This document shows positions 50,769-64,000 of a stretch of DNA of 64,000 nt, piece after piece. The notes under the pieces were generated by a model. That model ran no database searches. It saw only the letters and a list, made by a program, of their open reading frames with translations, and had not been told where the DNA came from. The stretch is from Paucibacter sp. Y2R2-4 (GTDB lineage Bacteria > Pseudomonadota > Gammaproteobacteria > Burkholderiales > Burkholderiaceae_C), in contig NZ_JAJIRO010000002.1 in the NCBI RefSeq assembly GCF_025717535.1, positions 806,001-870,000 on the forward strand, written 5' to 3'. The translations under genes were made by a program, and so were the position numbers. Each line of letters starts with the position of its first letter. Position 1 is the stretch's first letter.

Positions 50769-51338
50769 TCAGGACTGCGCCCCAGCTTGGCCGCCGCGCC
50801 ACAGCGCCAGCAGCCAGGCCCGCAGACGCGCCAGCCAACCGAGCCCGAGTTCAGGCTGCGCAGCCGGGCTGGGTTCGGCCAGGGCCGAGACAGAGGCCAC
50901 GCTCAGCTGCGCCTCAAAGCGCTGAAAAAACTCGCCAATGATTTTTTGCGCAGCGGCGTCCACCACCCGCGAGCCGATCTGCGCCAGCTTGCCGCCGATC
51001 TGCACATCGGCGCTGTAGCTGAGGCGGCAGCTCTGTGCGGACAAAGCTTCCAGACTCACCGCCGCGCGGCCCTTGCCAAAGCCCGCCACGCCGCCCTGCC
51101 CTTCAAACTGCACGGCATAGCTTTGTGGTGCCACCACGTCTTGCATCTGTAGCGTGGCCTTGAAGCGCGCCCGCACCGGGCCCACCGCCGCCATCACCAC
51201 CAGCTGCAGCTGGTCATCGGCGCTGCGCTGCAGCGATTCGCAACCGGGGATGCAGGCCTGCAGCACCGCGTCGTCATTCAGCGCCGCCCAGGCTTGCGCC
51301 TGCGAGCAAGGCAGCTCGCGTTGGTTTTCGATCTTCAT
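50769..51338 (-). CDS. CoxG-like SRPBCC-family protein
   Basis: 189 residues: CoxG/COG3427 START-like domain (MKIENQRELPCSQAQAWAALND, LQACIPGCESLQRS, VQIGGKLAQIGSRVVDAAAQKII) plus a C-terminal membrane-proximal tail (LARLRAWLLALW). CoxG proteins go with molybdenum hydroxylases of the CO dehydrogenase family and are proposed to help anchor or mature them; some bind menaquinone or lipid. It lies three bases after the dioxygenase gene and near a molybdenum hydroxylase operon on the same strand, which supports a functional link. ATG 51338. Confidence 0.88.
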   Translation of the reverse strand: MKIENQRELPCSQAQAWAALNDDAVLQACIPGCESLQRSADDQLQLVVMAAVGPVRARFKATLQMQDVVAPQSYAVQFEGQGGVAGFGKGRAAVSLEALSAQSCRLSYSADVQIGGKLAQIGSRVVDAAAQKIIGEFFQRFEAQLSVASVSALAEPSPAAQPELGLGWLARLRAWLLALWRGGQAGAQS

Positions 51339-51341
51339 GGT

Positions 51342-51956
51342 TCAGGCCTCCTGCGGTGACAGCGGCGCGAGTGGCGACAGCGGCACGGCGGCATGTGGGT
51401 GTTTTTTCGCGATCACGCCGTGCCAGCTGCGCCAGTCGCGGCCGGGATGAACTTCGCCGCAAGATGCACAGGTGCGCGAGGCTTCATCGCTGGAATAGAA
51501 CTGCTGATACAGCGGCGGCAAGTCGCCAACAATGCTTTGCAGCTGCACCGCGTGGCGCTGGATCAGGCCGCCGCAATGGGCGCAATACCACTGGAAGGCA
51601 TCAAGGCTGCCGGGCGCGCGCTGACGTTCGATCACGGTGCAAAGACTGCCAGCCTCGGGGCGCTGCGGCGAATGCTGAACATGGGCCGGCAGCAAAAAGA
51701 CATCGCCCTCTTTCAAGTCAACCCGCTCGAACTGGCCGCGGTCCCAGAGGATCAGATGGGCATTGCCCTTGAGCTGGTGAAAGAACTCCTCGTGCGGATC
51801 GTCGTGAAAGTCGGTGCGCTGGTTGGGTCCACCCACCACGGTGCAGATGAAGTCCGCGTCTTGCCAGATTTGCTGGTTGCCCACCGGCGGCTTCAGCTCG
51901 GCGGCATGGTCCGCAATCCAGCGGGAGAAGTTCAAGGGACGTCCGTATTTCAGCAT
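51342..51956 (-). CDS. nbaC: 3-hydroxyanthranilate 3,4-dioxygenase
   Basis: Fe(II) cupin dioxygenase that opens 3-hydroxyanthranilate to 2-amino-3-carboxymuconate semialdehyde (precursor of quinolinate and the tryptophan/2-nitrobenzoate route). 204 residues. Catalytic residues of the Cupriavidus enzyme are all at the same numbers: R47, H51, E57, H95, R99 and E110. The second, rubredoxin-like iron site has C125-x-x-C128 and a later CASC. It starts [13 protein letters not shown] at ATG 51956. No kynurenine genes are in the window. It heads the dioxygenase-coxG pair and is divergent from lysR. Confidence 0.96.
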
Positions 51957-52035
51957 GATGGGCTTTCTATGGAAGTGGATTGTGAAGGAGGCCCAAGGCC
52001 GAACTGACGTCGCCCTGGGTATGATGCGGCCGCCC
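51957..52035. promoter_or_regulatory. Divergent promoter region between the dioxygenase and lysR genes
   Basis: 79 bp separate the two start codons, the usual arrangement for a LysR-type regulator controlling the adjacent operon. An imperfect dyad CTTTCTATGGAAG lies near 51963-51975; I could not find a clean T-N11-A box. Confidence 0.4.
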
Positions 52036-62362: not shown

Positions 62363-62403
62363 TGTCGGAATTCCTGTCATTCACGGGCTGCTCTGGCGCG
62401 GCT

Positions 62404-63291
62404 TCAGGCGCGCTTGCGCGGCGCGCTCACCGGTTGGGCTGGTTTCGCTGCTTTCGCTGCCGCAGCAGCCGGCCTCTTGACCACTTTGGCTGGCGCCTGG
62501 TCGGTGACTTTCTCCGCCGCCTTGCCTGCGCTTTTGCTTGCCAGCTTGGGCGCGCTCGCCGGCTTGGCCTTGCTTGCGGGCTTGCTTGCGGGCTTATTGA
62601 CTGCCGAGCCGACATCTGACCCGGAAGCCGCAGGCGCTGCGCTGCCGCCCTCTTGCTGCTGACGCAAGAGATCAATCACATTGATGCTCAAGCGCGCCGT
62701 GTGATTGCGCATCGCTTCGTAAGAGGCTTCCGCGTCGCCGGCCTGAATGGCGGCCAGAATCGCCTGATGCTCGGCATGCGAGACCGACAAGCGGCGCTCA
62801 ACCTTGGTCTGCGCGGCACGGAAGGGCGCCAGGCGCTCGCGCAAGCCGTCGAGCATGGCCGTCAGCGAACGGTTCTGCGCGCCGGCGCTGATCAGCTGGT
62901 GGAACTGGTGGTTGAGCTGCAAATAGCCGGCCTCGTCGCCGCGCGCCACACAGTCTTCGCTTTGCTGCTGCACCATGGCCAGCTGCTTCTTCTGCACCGC
63001 ACTCATGCGCTCAGCGCTGATGCGGCAACACAGCGCATCCAGCTCCACCATGGCCTCCAGCATGTCGGACAGATCGGCCAGGCCAATGCTGCGCACGATG
63101 CCGCCTTTGCGCGGCTGCAGATCAATCAAGCCGCGCGCATGCAACTCGCGCAAGGCTTCACGGATCGGCGTCCGTGAAACCTGAAAGCGCTCGGCCAGCA
63201 CCAACTCCTCCAGCTTCTGCCCAGGCGGCAGTTTGCCGCTGACGATGTCTTCGGTAAGGCTGCGGCAGATGCCTGAGGATGCATTTCCCAT
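62404..63291 (-). CDS. GntR-family (FCD) regulator with Lys/Ala-rich C-terminal tail
   Basis: 295 residues. Winged helix-turn-helix (ERFQVSRTPIREALRELHARGLIDLQPRKGGIVRS), then the all-helical FCD ligand-binding domain (DLSDMLEAMVELDALCCRISAERM, HQFHQLISAGAQN, SHAEHQAILAAIQAGDAEASYEAMRNHTARL). The last 65 or so residues are a Lys/Ala/Pro/Ser histone-H1-like tail, unusual for the family. It is divergent from the VOC gene with ATGTATACAT in the gap. Probably represses or activates the catabolic region. ATG 63291. Confidence 0.93.
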   Translation of the reverse strand: MGNASSGICRSLTEDIVSGKLPPGQKLEELVLAERFQVSRTPIREALRELHARGLIDLQPRKGGIVRSIGLADLSDMLEAMVELDALCCRISAERMSAVQKKQLAMVQQQSEDCVARGDEAGYLQLNHQFHQLISAGAQNRSLTAMLDGLRERLAPFRAAQTKVERRLSVSHAEHQAILAAIQAGDAEASYEAMRNHTARLSINVIDLLRQQQEGGSAAPAASGSDVGSAVNKPASKPASKAKPASAPKLASKSAGKAAEKVTDQAPAKVVKRPAAAAAKAAKPAQPVSAPRKRA

Positions 63292-63603
63292 GAAAGTTCC
63301 TGCTGTGATTGAGCGTTACGCCAGGGAGTGAAAAGGGGCGAGAAGGGCCAAGAAAGCCCGCCACGGCAGCTAAGCCGTGGATTGGCTGCGATTCTAGCGG
63401 TGGCGCGCACAAGTGCTTTGCCAAAGCACATTGTTGCATACACATATTGTTTGATGTATACATGCGAACTATGCGGCGCGGGCGGCAATCCGGTGCGGGC
63501 CAGTCCTGCCATCAAACGATTGCCGAACCGCTGCTGCTGACTCCCCTCTCCCATCTCCTCAACCCAACGTCACTCCGACACTTTCTTAAAACTGGAGGCC
63601 ATC
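63292..63603. promoter_or_regulatory. Intergenic divergent promoter region between gntR and the VOC gene
   Basis: 312 bp without a credible gene. The GntR-proximal part is GC-rich; an AT-rich segment around 63430-63470 holds ATGTATACAT and near-repeats GCATACACATATTG, a likely operator/promoter for both directions. A 5' leader of about 130 bp precedes the VOC start. Confidence 0.5.
63454..63463. promoter_or_regulatory. ATGTATACAT palindrome between gntR and the VOC gene
   Basis: Identical to the site at 58679-58688 in the porin promoter. A site next to the gntR start codon is typical of autoregulation. Confidence 0.5.
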
Positions 63604-64000
63604 ATGGCTGGCAAGCTGCGTCATCTCGCAATTTCTGTACCCGACCCTTGGGCAGTAGCGCCCTTCTACGAGCAGGCGTTTGGCATGAAGAAGGTCGGCG
63701 AGACCGATTCTTCCTTGGCGCGCGGCGTCTACCTGAGCGACGGCGTGATGTGCGTCGCCCTGTTGAACTACAAGACCGACCAAGCTGCCGGCGATCGCGG
63801 ACGTGACTATGTGGGTCTGCATCACATCGGCTTTTGGGTCGATGAAATCGGCCAAGCCCGTCAAGACTGCGAGGCCGCGGGCGGCAGCTATTACATGGGC
63901 GAAGTGCCCGTGAAGGGCAATATCTTTTACGAGGTGAAGTACAAAGACCCGAACGGCGTCATCATCGACCTCACCGATCACGGCTGGGGCGGTGCCGCCA
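63604..64000 (+). CDS. VOC (glyoxalase/extradiol dioxygenase) family protein, cut by right edge
   Basis: 132 residues before the edge, nearly complete. VOC beta-alpha-beta-beta-beta modules: LRHLAISVPDPWAVAPFYEQAFGM and HHIGFWVDEIGQARQDCEAAGG with likely metal ligands H7, H93/94 and a late Glu (FYEVKYKDPNGVIIDLTDHG). Such enzymes act as glyoxalases, epimerases or ring-cleavage dioxygenases; the reaction is not clear. It starts at ATG 63604 and is divergent from gntR, so probably a target of that regulator. Confidence 0.88.
   Translation, partial: MAGKLRHLAISVPDPWAVAPFYEQAFGMKKVGETDSSLARGVYLSDGVMCVALLNYKTDQAAGDRGRDYVGLHHIGFWVDEIGQARQDCEAAGGSYYMGEVPVKGNIFYEVKYKDPNGVIIDLTDHGWGGAA

Follow-up and report, generated by a model that had tools for sequence, protein, structure and literature searches.

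A candidate ACMSD-independent module for 3-hydroxyanthranilate breakdown in Paucibacter and other Proteobacteria

The window analysed here is a stretch of 64,000 nucleotides from the 5.1-Mb genome of Paucibacter sp. Y2R2-4 (contig NZ_JAJIRO010000002.1), which encodes between positions 50769 and 64000 a three-subunit molybdenum hydroxylase, a 3-hydroxyanthranilate 3,4-dioxygenase (3HAO) and a protein of the dihydrodipicolinate synthase fold (DHDPS-like protein). Comparison with related loci identifies this neighbourhood as a conserved catabolic module that is centred on 3HAO and the DHDPS-like protein rather than on the molybdenum hydroxylase. We propose, with a probability of roughly 0.5, that the module is a lower pathway for 3-hydroxyanthranilate (3HAA) independent of ACMSD, the decarboxylase of 2-amino-3-carboxymuconate semialdehyde (ACMS), and that ACMS, or the oxidised form of it, would be the substrate of the DHDPS-like protein acting as a hydratase-aldolase. 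As judged from the genes, the new part would be the lower branch with its aldolase-like enzyme, whereas the ring-cleavage start by 3HAO is known. Compared loci and genomes carry L and G numbers, respectively; the own genome is G000 and the own locus OWN. The module genes of the window are as follows.

50769..51338, minus strand: CoxG-like protein, accessory to molybdenum hydroxylases (PF06240, E 5e-29), 3 bases past 3HAO
51342..51956, minus strand: 3HAO, the ring opener (PF06052, E 1e-41; PRK13264, TIGR03037)
52024..53103, plus strand: LysR regulator (PF03466/PF00126), divergent from 3HAO and convergent with the operon
53093..53917, minus strand: aspartate-dehydrogenase-like (AspDH-like) protein (PF01958/PF03447)
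53914..54729, minus strand: molybdenum hydroxylase medium (FAD) subunit (PF00941/PF03450)
54716..55207, minus strand: molybdenum hydroxylase small (2Fe-2S) subunit (PF01799/PF00111)
55213..56172, minus strand: DHDPS-like, predicted Schiff-base enzyme and module core (PF00701, E 5e-27)
56195..58408, minus strand: molybdenum hydroxylase large (MoCo) subunit (PF20256, PF02738, PF01315)

Five of these genes form a minus-strand operon in the order large subunit, DHDPS-like, small subunit, medium subunit and AspDH-like, with overlaps or gaps of at most 22 bases, and the plus-strand LysR gene sits between this operon and the minus-strand pair of 3HAO and CoxG. The original prediction, made from the letters of the window, had listed the genes and their strands, and every gene it named was found at about the place given. 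Roseateles and Paucibacter are the nearest named relatives of the locus among the matches listed.

Conservation of 3HAO and the DHDPS-like protein

A contig scan gave at least 542 relatives of the DHDPS-like protein among Proteobacteria, and the locus set is biased to close kin because it mostly comprises the best 80 of these. In total, 108 DHDPS-centred loci passed the threshold, namely 93 of the 94 in the first set and 15 of 20 fetched later, the other five having been fetched for 3HAO and lacking a DHDPS-like gene; L049, at 38% identity, was left out under a stricter threshold. Removal of six duplicates left 102 distinct loci, 76 of which extend at least 7 kb on both sides (well-covered loci), and gene presence was scored by tblastn with labelled reference proteins. 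Among the well-covered loci, 3HAO is present in 65, the AspDH-like gene in 50, the large molybdenum subunit in 47, a similar LysR in 29, the small subunit in 21, the medium subunit in 20, CoxG in 19 and an aldehyde dehydrogenase (ALDH) in 14. With the same references, neither 3HAO nor any molybdenum subunit nor AspDH was found in 23 control loci (3.4-3.9 kb) centred on other members of the DHDPS family, which yielded two ALDH, two LysR and one hydrolase match; within the 1.5-kb reach of this control, 3HAO is found in 39, the large subunit in 62 and AspDH in 25 of the 102 module loci. Relatives of the DHDPS-like protein occur on plasmids and chromosomes, and annotated plasmids of Phaeobacter, Chelatococcus, Ensifer and Pukyongiella carry DHDPS-like, AspDH and 3HAO genes in one stretch, with or without a molybdenum gene. 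A search for co-conserved neighbourhoods of the DHDPS-like and AspDH-like proteins had been named beforehand as a test of the original prediction, which took the genes for one catabolic system; co-conservation holds for the core, but not for the porin, chemoreceptor, GntR and VOC genes described below.

In two even whole-genome samples, 220 genomes of the order and 274 of the phylum (sharing G000 and some genomes with neither gene), the DHDPS-like protein occurs in 10 and 9 genomes, 3HAO in 17 and 16, and both in 9 and 9 (Fisher p 8e-11 and 5e-13). Over the two samples, 3HAO accompanies the DHDPS-like protein in 17 of 18 genomes, and not one of the 18 has a clear ACMSD, defined by at least 53% identity in the 220-genome sample and at least 39% in the 274-genome sample, where the search reached only to 1e-60. 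Conversely, the five and three genomes with a clear ACMSD all possess 3HAO and none possesses the DHDPS-like protein. The 32 distinct 3HAO genomes thus comprise 17 with only the DHDPS-like protein, 8 with only ACMSD, none with both and 7 with neither (G177, G214, G245, G283, G341, G345 and G446; Fisher p 6e-4, for genomes that are not independent of one another). Moreover, ACMSD was not found in G000 at E<=1e-40, nor in the DHDPS-like loci at 1e-8. ACMSD normally acts on ACMS, the product of 3HAO, and these distributions give good support to a pairing of the DHDPS-like protein with 3HAO, in which it stands in for ACMSD. The earlier suggestion that a DHDPS-fold enzyme acts after ring opening is judged probable.

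Three of the seven genomes with neither gene show other arrangements. In G214 (L148, 8637-14098), 3HAO adjoins a large molybdenum subunit, and a UbiD-like gene was seen by sight nearby, perhaps a further variant. In G446 (L151, 7282-11418), 3HAO lies near a RidA protein and, by sight, flavin-reductase-like and two-component-monooxygenase-like genes, through which 3HAA might be formed or used in another way. In G177 (L147, 2788-4787), 3HAO overlaps a hydroxymuconic-type aldehyde dehydrogenase gene that exceeds its cut-off.

By its sequence the window protein is an orthodox 3HAO. It exceeds two NCBIfam equivalog cut-offs (PRK13264, 253 against 220; TIGR03037, 243 against 146) and aligns with the solved 3HAO 1yfu over nearly its full length with a single one-residue gap (E 7e-82), and this alignment retains the active-site metal ligands, arginines and CxxC pairs. 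It is the only copy found in its genome. The ring opened by the module is therefore most likely that of 3HAA, a tryptophan product. Kynureninase and tryptophan dioxygenase (TDO) are both present in G000; a kynureninase over its cut-off lies in the region L004:13752-15635, about 18 kb from the operon, with an Lrp-type regulator recognised by sight, and the TDO gene is on another contig (G000:C5:298862-299653). Another porin-like gene, also recognised by sight, follows this regulator and kynureninase. Genes for TDO, a kynurenine-formamidase-like protein and kynureninase adjoin some module copies, such as L040 and L072, and among the well-covered loci they number 3, 13 and 7, respectively. For the one kynurenine-formamidase-like protein scanned (L068), the best solved relative is a lipase and the second a Drosophila kynurenine formamidase.

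The DHDPS-like protein is a PF00701 member that stays below all seven NCBIfam cut-offs listed. The DHDPS/N-acetylneuraminate lyase superfamily, which includes hydratase-aldolases such as NahE and PhdJ, shares with it the fold and the Schiff-base lysine, K178, kept in 102 of 102 sequences. In the same 102 sequences, however, the GTTGE motif is replaced by GKQ(G/A)E (K59 and Q60) and the catalytic Tyr by Trp (W151); a smaller set of 40 sequences showed these residues in all 40. In a control of DHDPS-family paralogues, GTTGE is present in 19 of 23, with GSQGE in two, GSLGE in one and GTNSE in one; all 22 that reach far enough have both Tyr and Lys, and none has K59 or W151. This active-site reading comes from alignment alone, and an alignment to solved N-acetylneuraminate lyases gives the same picture. 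The changed residues are presumably the usual pyruvate-carboxylate clamp and proton relay of the family, and their loss hints that the substrate is not a plain 2-oxo acid.

Exchange of the molybdenum enzyme and an aldehyde dehydrogenase

All three molybdenum subunits find their best NCBIfam match, below cut-off, in glyceraldehyde dehydrogenase subunits (alpha for the large subunit). CO, quinoline and hydroxypseudooxynicotine enzymes are among the solved relatives of the large subunit, with CoxL near and quinoline 2-oxidoreductase (1t3q) second-best, so that the substrate cannot be read from homology alone. The enzyme shares with the xanthine oxidase family, to which glyceraldehyde oxidoreductase, CO dehydrogenase and quinoline 2-oxidoreductase belong, the three subunits, the MoCo, FAD and 2Fe-2S domains and a nearby CoxG. 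It differs from known molybdenum hydroxylases in staying under every NCBIfam cut-off listed, in the coupling of its large-subunit gene to the DHDPS-like gene and in being interchangeable with an ALDH.

This interchange is seen in the well-covered loci, 46 of which have only the large subunit, 13 only the ALDH, 1 both and 16 neither (p 5e-6). The single locus with both, L109, holds a distant ALDH of 38% identity, whereas each of the 14 module ALDHs shares 69-100% identity with the two references. Over all 102 loci, 14 have a close ALDH of the succinate semialdehyde dehydrogenase (SSADH) type with no large subunit in search reach, and 26 have neither; among these 26, a partial molybdenum match stands at the contig end in L065, L102 and L140, and a distant ALDH is present in L047 and L141. 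The slot directly upstream of the DHDPS-like gene is occupied by the large subunit in 62 loci and by the ALDH in 7. In L038 and L130 the order is the same, namely slot gene, DHDPS-like, 3HAO, five transporter genes, hydrolase and AspDH-like, with a molybdenum gene in the slot of L038 and an ALDH in that of L130; the labelled genes of L120 (molybdenum) and L122 (ALDH) are likewise matched in spacing. At least six changes between the two states are needed on the tree of DHDPS-like proteins. The interchange of the molybdenum enzyme and the ALDH is well supported by these arrangements, and we interpret it as one aldehyde oxidation served by two unrelated enzymes; given the SSADH-type enzyme in the slot, an aldehyde is most likely also the substrate of the molybdenum enzyme. 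For the L130 ALDH, SSADH and ketoglutaric semialdehyde dehydrogenase are the solved relatives. The original prediction had let the molybdenum hydroxylase start the catabolism of an N-heteroaromatic compound; given the 14 loci with an ALDH instead, 7 of them in the very slot, and the 26 with neither, we rejected it as the first enzyme of the pathway.

The type of the ALDH also bears on the aldehyde. SSADH is the best match of all nine module ALDHs scanned of the 14 (398-445 bits, against at most 305 for hydroxymuconic semialdehyde dehydrogenase), whereas the ALDHs of classical and other 3HAO genomes (L152, L153, L155 and L147) match hydroxymuconic semialdehyde dehydrogenase best in 4 of 4 cases (640-866 bits), a contrast that is partly circular because the module ALDHs were found with SSADH-type references. 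The aldehyde of the module therefore probably differs from that of the classical route.

Proposed route and its alternatives

The classical, nba-type route for 3HAA runs from 3HAO through ACMSD, AMSDH, a RidA-type deaminase, 4-oxalocrotonate decarboxylase and a hydratase to 4-hydroxy-2-oxovalerate aldolase. A near-complete set is found in L152, comprising a hydroxymuconic-type ALDH, acylating acetaldehyde dehydrogenase, 4-hydroxy-2-oxovalerate aldolase, a dmpH-like gene, RidA, 3HAO and ACMSD. The module has in common with this route the starting compound, the ring opener and an aldehyde oxidation after ring opening. In place of ACMSD, 4-hydroxy-2-oxovalerate aldolase and a RidA beside 3HAO, however, the window has the DHDPS-like protein, the AspDH-like protein and the molybdenum enzyme, for which relatives have the SSADH-type ALDH. 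RidA directly adjoins 3HAO in 6 of 8 3HAO loci of ACMSD genomes (L149, L150, L152, L153, L154 and L156), whereas 50 of the 76 well-covered module loci have AspDH-like instead; in the window no RidA stands beside 3HAO, the own-genome copy lying about 13 kb from the operon. The absence of 4-hydroxy-2-oxovalerate aldolase from 10 of 11 module genomes, including G000 (TIGR03217, E<=1e-30 in G000), speaks against the textbook lower route in G000, although the enzyme is not a clean marker because 4 of 6 ACMSD genomes lack it too.

The AspDH-like protein is over the subfamily cut-off PRK13303.1-3 (264 against 177) and below the aspartate dehydrogenase equivalogs TIGR03855 (176 against 207) and PRK13303.1-1 (220 against 479). 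It was aligned to 2dc1 and 1j5p; with L-aspartate dehydrogenase (NadX) it shares the domain architecture, and its PKNxNVAAT-type and NxH stretches align to 2dc1. What separates it from NadX is its score under the equivalog cut-offs and its place in a catabolic operon.

A 2023 review gives spontaneous cyclisation to quinolinate or decarboxylation by ACMSD as the two fates of ACMS (PMC10143591). In our model, 3HAO would open the ring of 3HAA to give ACMS, on which, or on whose oxidised form, the DHDPS-like protein would act as a class I (Schiff-base lysine) hydratase-aldolase with a rebuilt active site. ACMS holds an iminoaspartate unit bearing a three-carbon aldehyde, so that a cut of the C3-C4 bond would release a C3 aldehyde, either malondialdehyde or, if oxidation precedes cleavage, malonate semialdehyde, and leave a C4 piece (iminoaspartate, or oxaloacetate and ammonia). 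The AspDH-like enzyme would then convert the C4 piece to aspartate, and the molybdenum enzyme, or the SSADH-type ALDH in other bacteria, would oxidise the aldehyde; LysR would regulate the operon, and the porin would serve uptake in the window's lineage. Such a cut would explain why an AspDH-like enzyme and a short-chain aldehyde oxidiser share one operon. Which bond is cut, what products arise and in which order cleavage and oxidation follow are inferred from chemistry and enzyme family only. In its full form, the proposal is of a third fate of ACMS, in which a DHDPS-fold enzyme with Lys-Gln and Trp for Thr-Thr and Tyr splits ACMS or 2-amino-3-carboxymuconate into iminoaspartate or oxaloacetate and a C3 aldehyde, aspartate retains the amino group of 3HAA, and molybdenum enzyme and ALDH interchange; we put this forward tentatively, at somewhat less than an even chance. 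Side support for the mechanism comes from a malonic semialdehyde reductase (265 bits, cut-off 152) encoded some 13 kb past the own operon, an aromatic amino acid transaminase in L111 and, in the Pukyongiella locus, an aspartate ammonia-lyase at a distance of about 10 kb. A literature search over titles and abstract openings, with few subscription journals, gave no description of the system, in keeping with the original prediction that no known pathway has exactly this gene set; by title and abstract, nothing related was found for 3HAA with aspartate dehydrogenase, and nothing for 3HAA with malonate semialdehyde.

Several alternatives were weighed against this route. The mutual exclusion of the DHDPS-like protein and ACMSD beside the same 3HAO would also follow if the former were an unrelated stand-in that decarboxylates ACMS through a Schiff base, as some DHDPS-family enzymes do decarboxylate (KdgD); the molybdenum enzyme or ALDH would then convert 2-aminomuconate semialdehyde to 2-aminomuconate, and AspDH-like or RidA would remove or reduce the amine. 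The own-genome RidA, 44-56% identical to six RidAs of classical clusters, fits this reading. Nevertheless, we consider it unlikely: the module ALDHs scanned are of SSADH and not hydroxymuconic type, RidA matches at module loci other than the own are weak (30-39% identity, five loci), only 1 of 11 module genomes has the classical 4-hydroxy-2-oxovalerate aldolase, and an aspartate-type dehydrogenase has no obvious place in it. A different substrate for the 3HAO homologue, namely another ortho-aminophenol-type or hydroxylated aromatic acid, in a module that is real and whose downstream chemistry acts as proposed on that other skeleton, would agree with the failure to find kynurenine monooxygenase in the own genome at E<=1e-40, with the low counts of kynureninase and TDO given above, and with a benzoate-CoA-ligase-like gene in 6 of the 76 loci. 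Such a substrate is improbable in view of the two equivalog cut-offs exceeded, the near full-length alignment to 1yfu and the 13 loci with kynurenine-formamidase-like genes. A small chance, hardly different from the last, is left to the view of the original prediction, in which the molybdenum hydroxylase would act on an N-heteroaromatic acid, for instance quinolinate from cyclisation of ACMS, the other enzymes processing the product. Quinoline 2-oxidoreductase as second-best solved relative favours it; moreover, 6-hydroxyquinolinate would be the lactam of 2-amino-3-carboxymuconate, so that hydroxylation of quinolinate and oxidation of the ACMS aldehyde could yield products at the same oxidation level. 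Yet an ALDH cannot hydroxylate the ring and nonetheless takes the molybdenum slot at 7 loci and replaces the molybdenum enzyme at 14, the three subunits match glyceraldehyde dehydrogenase subunits best, though under cut-off, and some loci hold 3HAO and DHDPS-like with neither oxidiser in reach.

Further observations weigh against the proposed aldolase route itself. In the own genome, 7 of 18 kynurenine 3-monooxygenase candidates were scored and none passed; the enzyme is equally absent from the five ACMSD genomes of the 220-genome sample and present in the ACMSD genome G402 (L158). G134 has the DHDPS-like protein without 3HAO, and 7 of the 10 module genomes of the 220-genome sample show weak amidohydrolase matches to ACMSD (30-35% identity; the best, 8e-52, in G181), which we judged not to be ACMSD and left uncounted. 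AspDH-like is absent from 26, 3HAO from 11 and both oxidisers from 16 of the 76 loci; of the 11 without 3HAO in reach, the gene lies about 12 kb away in the genome of L134 and the record of L037 and on another contig in the genome of L143. The classical cluster L153 (G458), with ACMSD and 3HAO, also has an AspDH-like gene (30-34% identity), and two 3HAO loci of ACMSD genomes (L158 in G402 and L159 in G457) have no RidA near 3HAO, L158 having kynureninase and kynurenine monooxygenase instead. As for the exchange, L039 was scored as ALDH only, whereas an annotated large-subunit gene is cut off at the locus end 11.5 kb from DHDPS-like (rescored as both, p 5e-5), weaker ALDH matches are present in L047, L112, L118, L139 and L141, and independent pairs on the DHDPS tree, although always opposite in state, number only 2-4 informative ones (sign test p 0.125-0.5, not significant).

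Neighbouring genes and meaning of the module

Beyond the operon, the window and the stretch behind it hold the following genes.

58699..59841, plus strand: Gram-negative porin (PF13609, E 3e-30), divergent from the large subunit
59878..61428, plus strand: methyl-accepting chemotaxis protein (MCP; PF00015/PF00672/PF12729), divergent from the large subunit
62404..63291, minus strand: GntR/FCD regulator of the neighbouring cluster (PF07729/PF00392)
63604..64000, plus strand: VOC (glyoxalase-fold) protein of the neighbouring cluster (PF00903), the gene continuing to 64074 outside the window (L004:1604-2074)
64084-73271 in window coordinates, outside the window (L004:2084-11271): neighbouring cluster

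Locus counts and searches led us to reject several of these as core parts. The porin is found in 9, VOC in 9 and GntR in 8 of the 76 well-covered loci, porin and GntR being kept beside the module only in the window's lineage and VOC nearly so. The N-terminal sensor half of the MCP matched only OWN and L046. A protein of 173 residues at 61859-62380, likewise rejected, has no Pfam match, and a search of the other 113 loci gave no relative of it at E<=1e-15.

The neighbouring cluster encodes a 2-hydroxyacid dehydrogenase, a FAH-family hydrolase, an ABC transporter, a second VOC, an esterase, a second DHDPS-family protein, RidA, the malonic semialdehyde reductase and a TauE-like permease. The VOC, FAH, solute-binding (SBP), second VOC, RidA and TauE proteins have relatives of 36-58% identity in the ACMSD/3HAO cluster L153, which weighs against the proposed route, and the cluster may serve the same metabolism as the module. 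The earlier inclusion of the VOC gene in the system fails for the core and gains some ground from these relatives. In the Acidovorax copies L124, L087, L094 and L110, a benzoate-CoA-ligase-like gene lies 6-8 kb downstream, adjoined in L124 by an acyl-CoA dehydrogenase gene.

If the proposed route is true, ACMS would have a third, enzyme-driven fate in many Proteobacteria, and the annotation of the 3HAO genes so accompanied would change. It would also assign a role to a DHDPS subfamily whose motif is unusual, and offer a case in nature where a molybdenum enzyme is exchanged for an aldehyde dehydrogenase unrelated to it.

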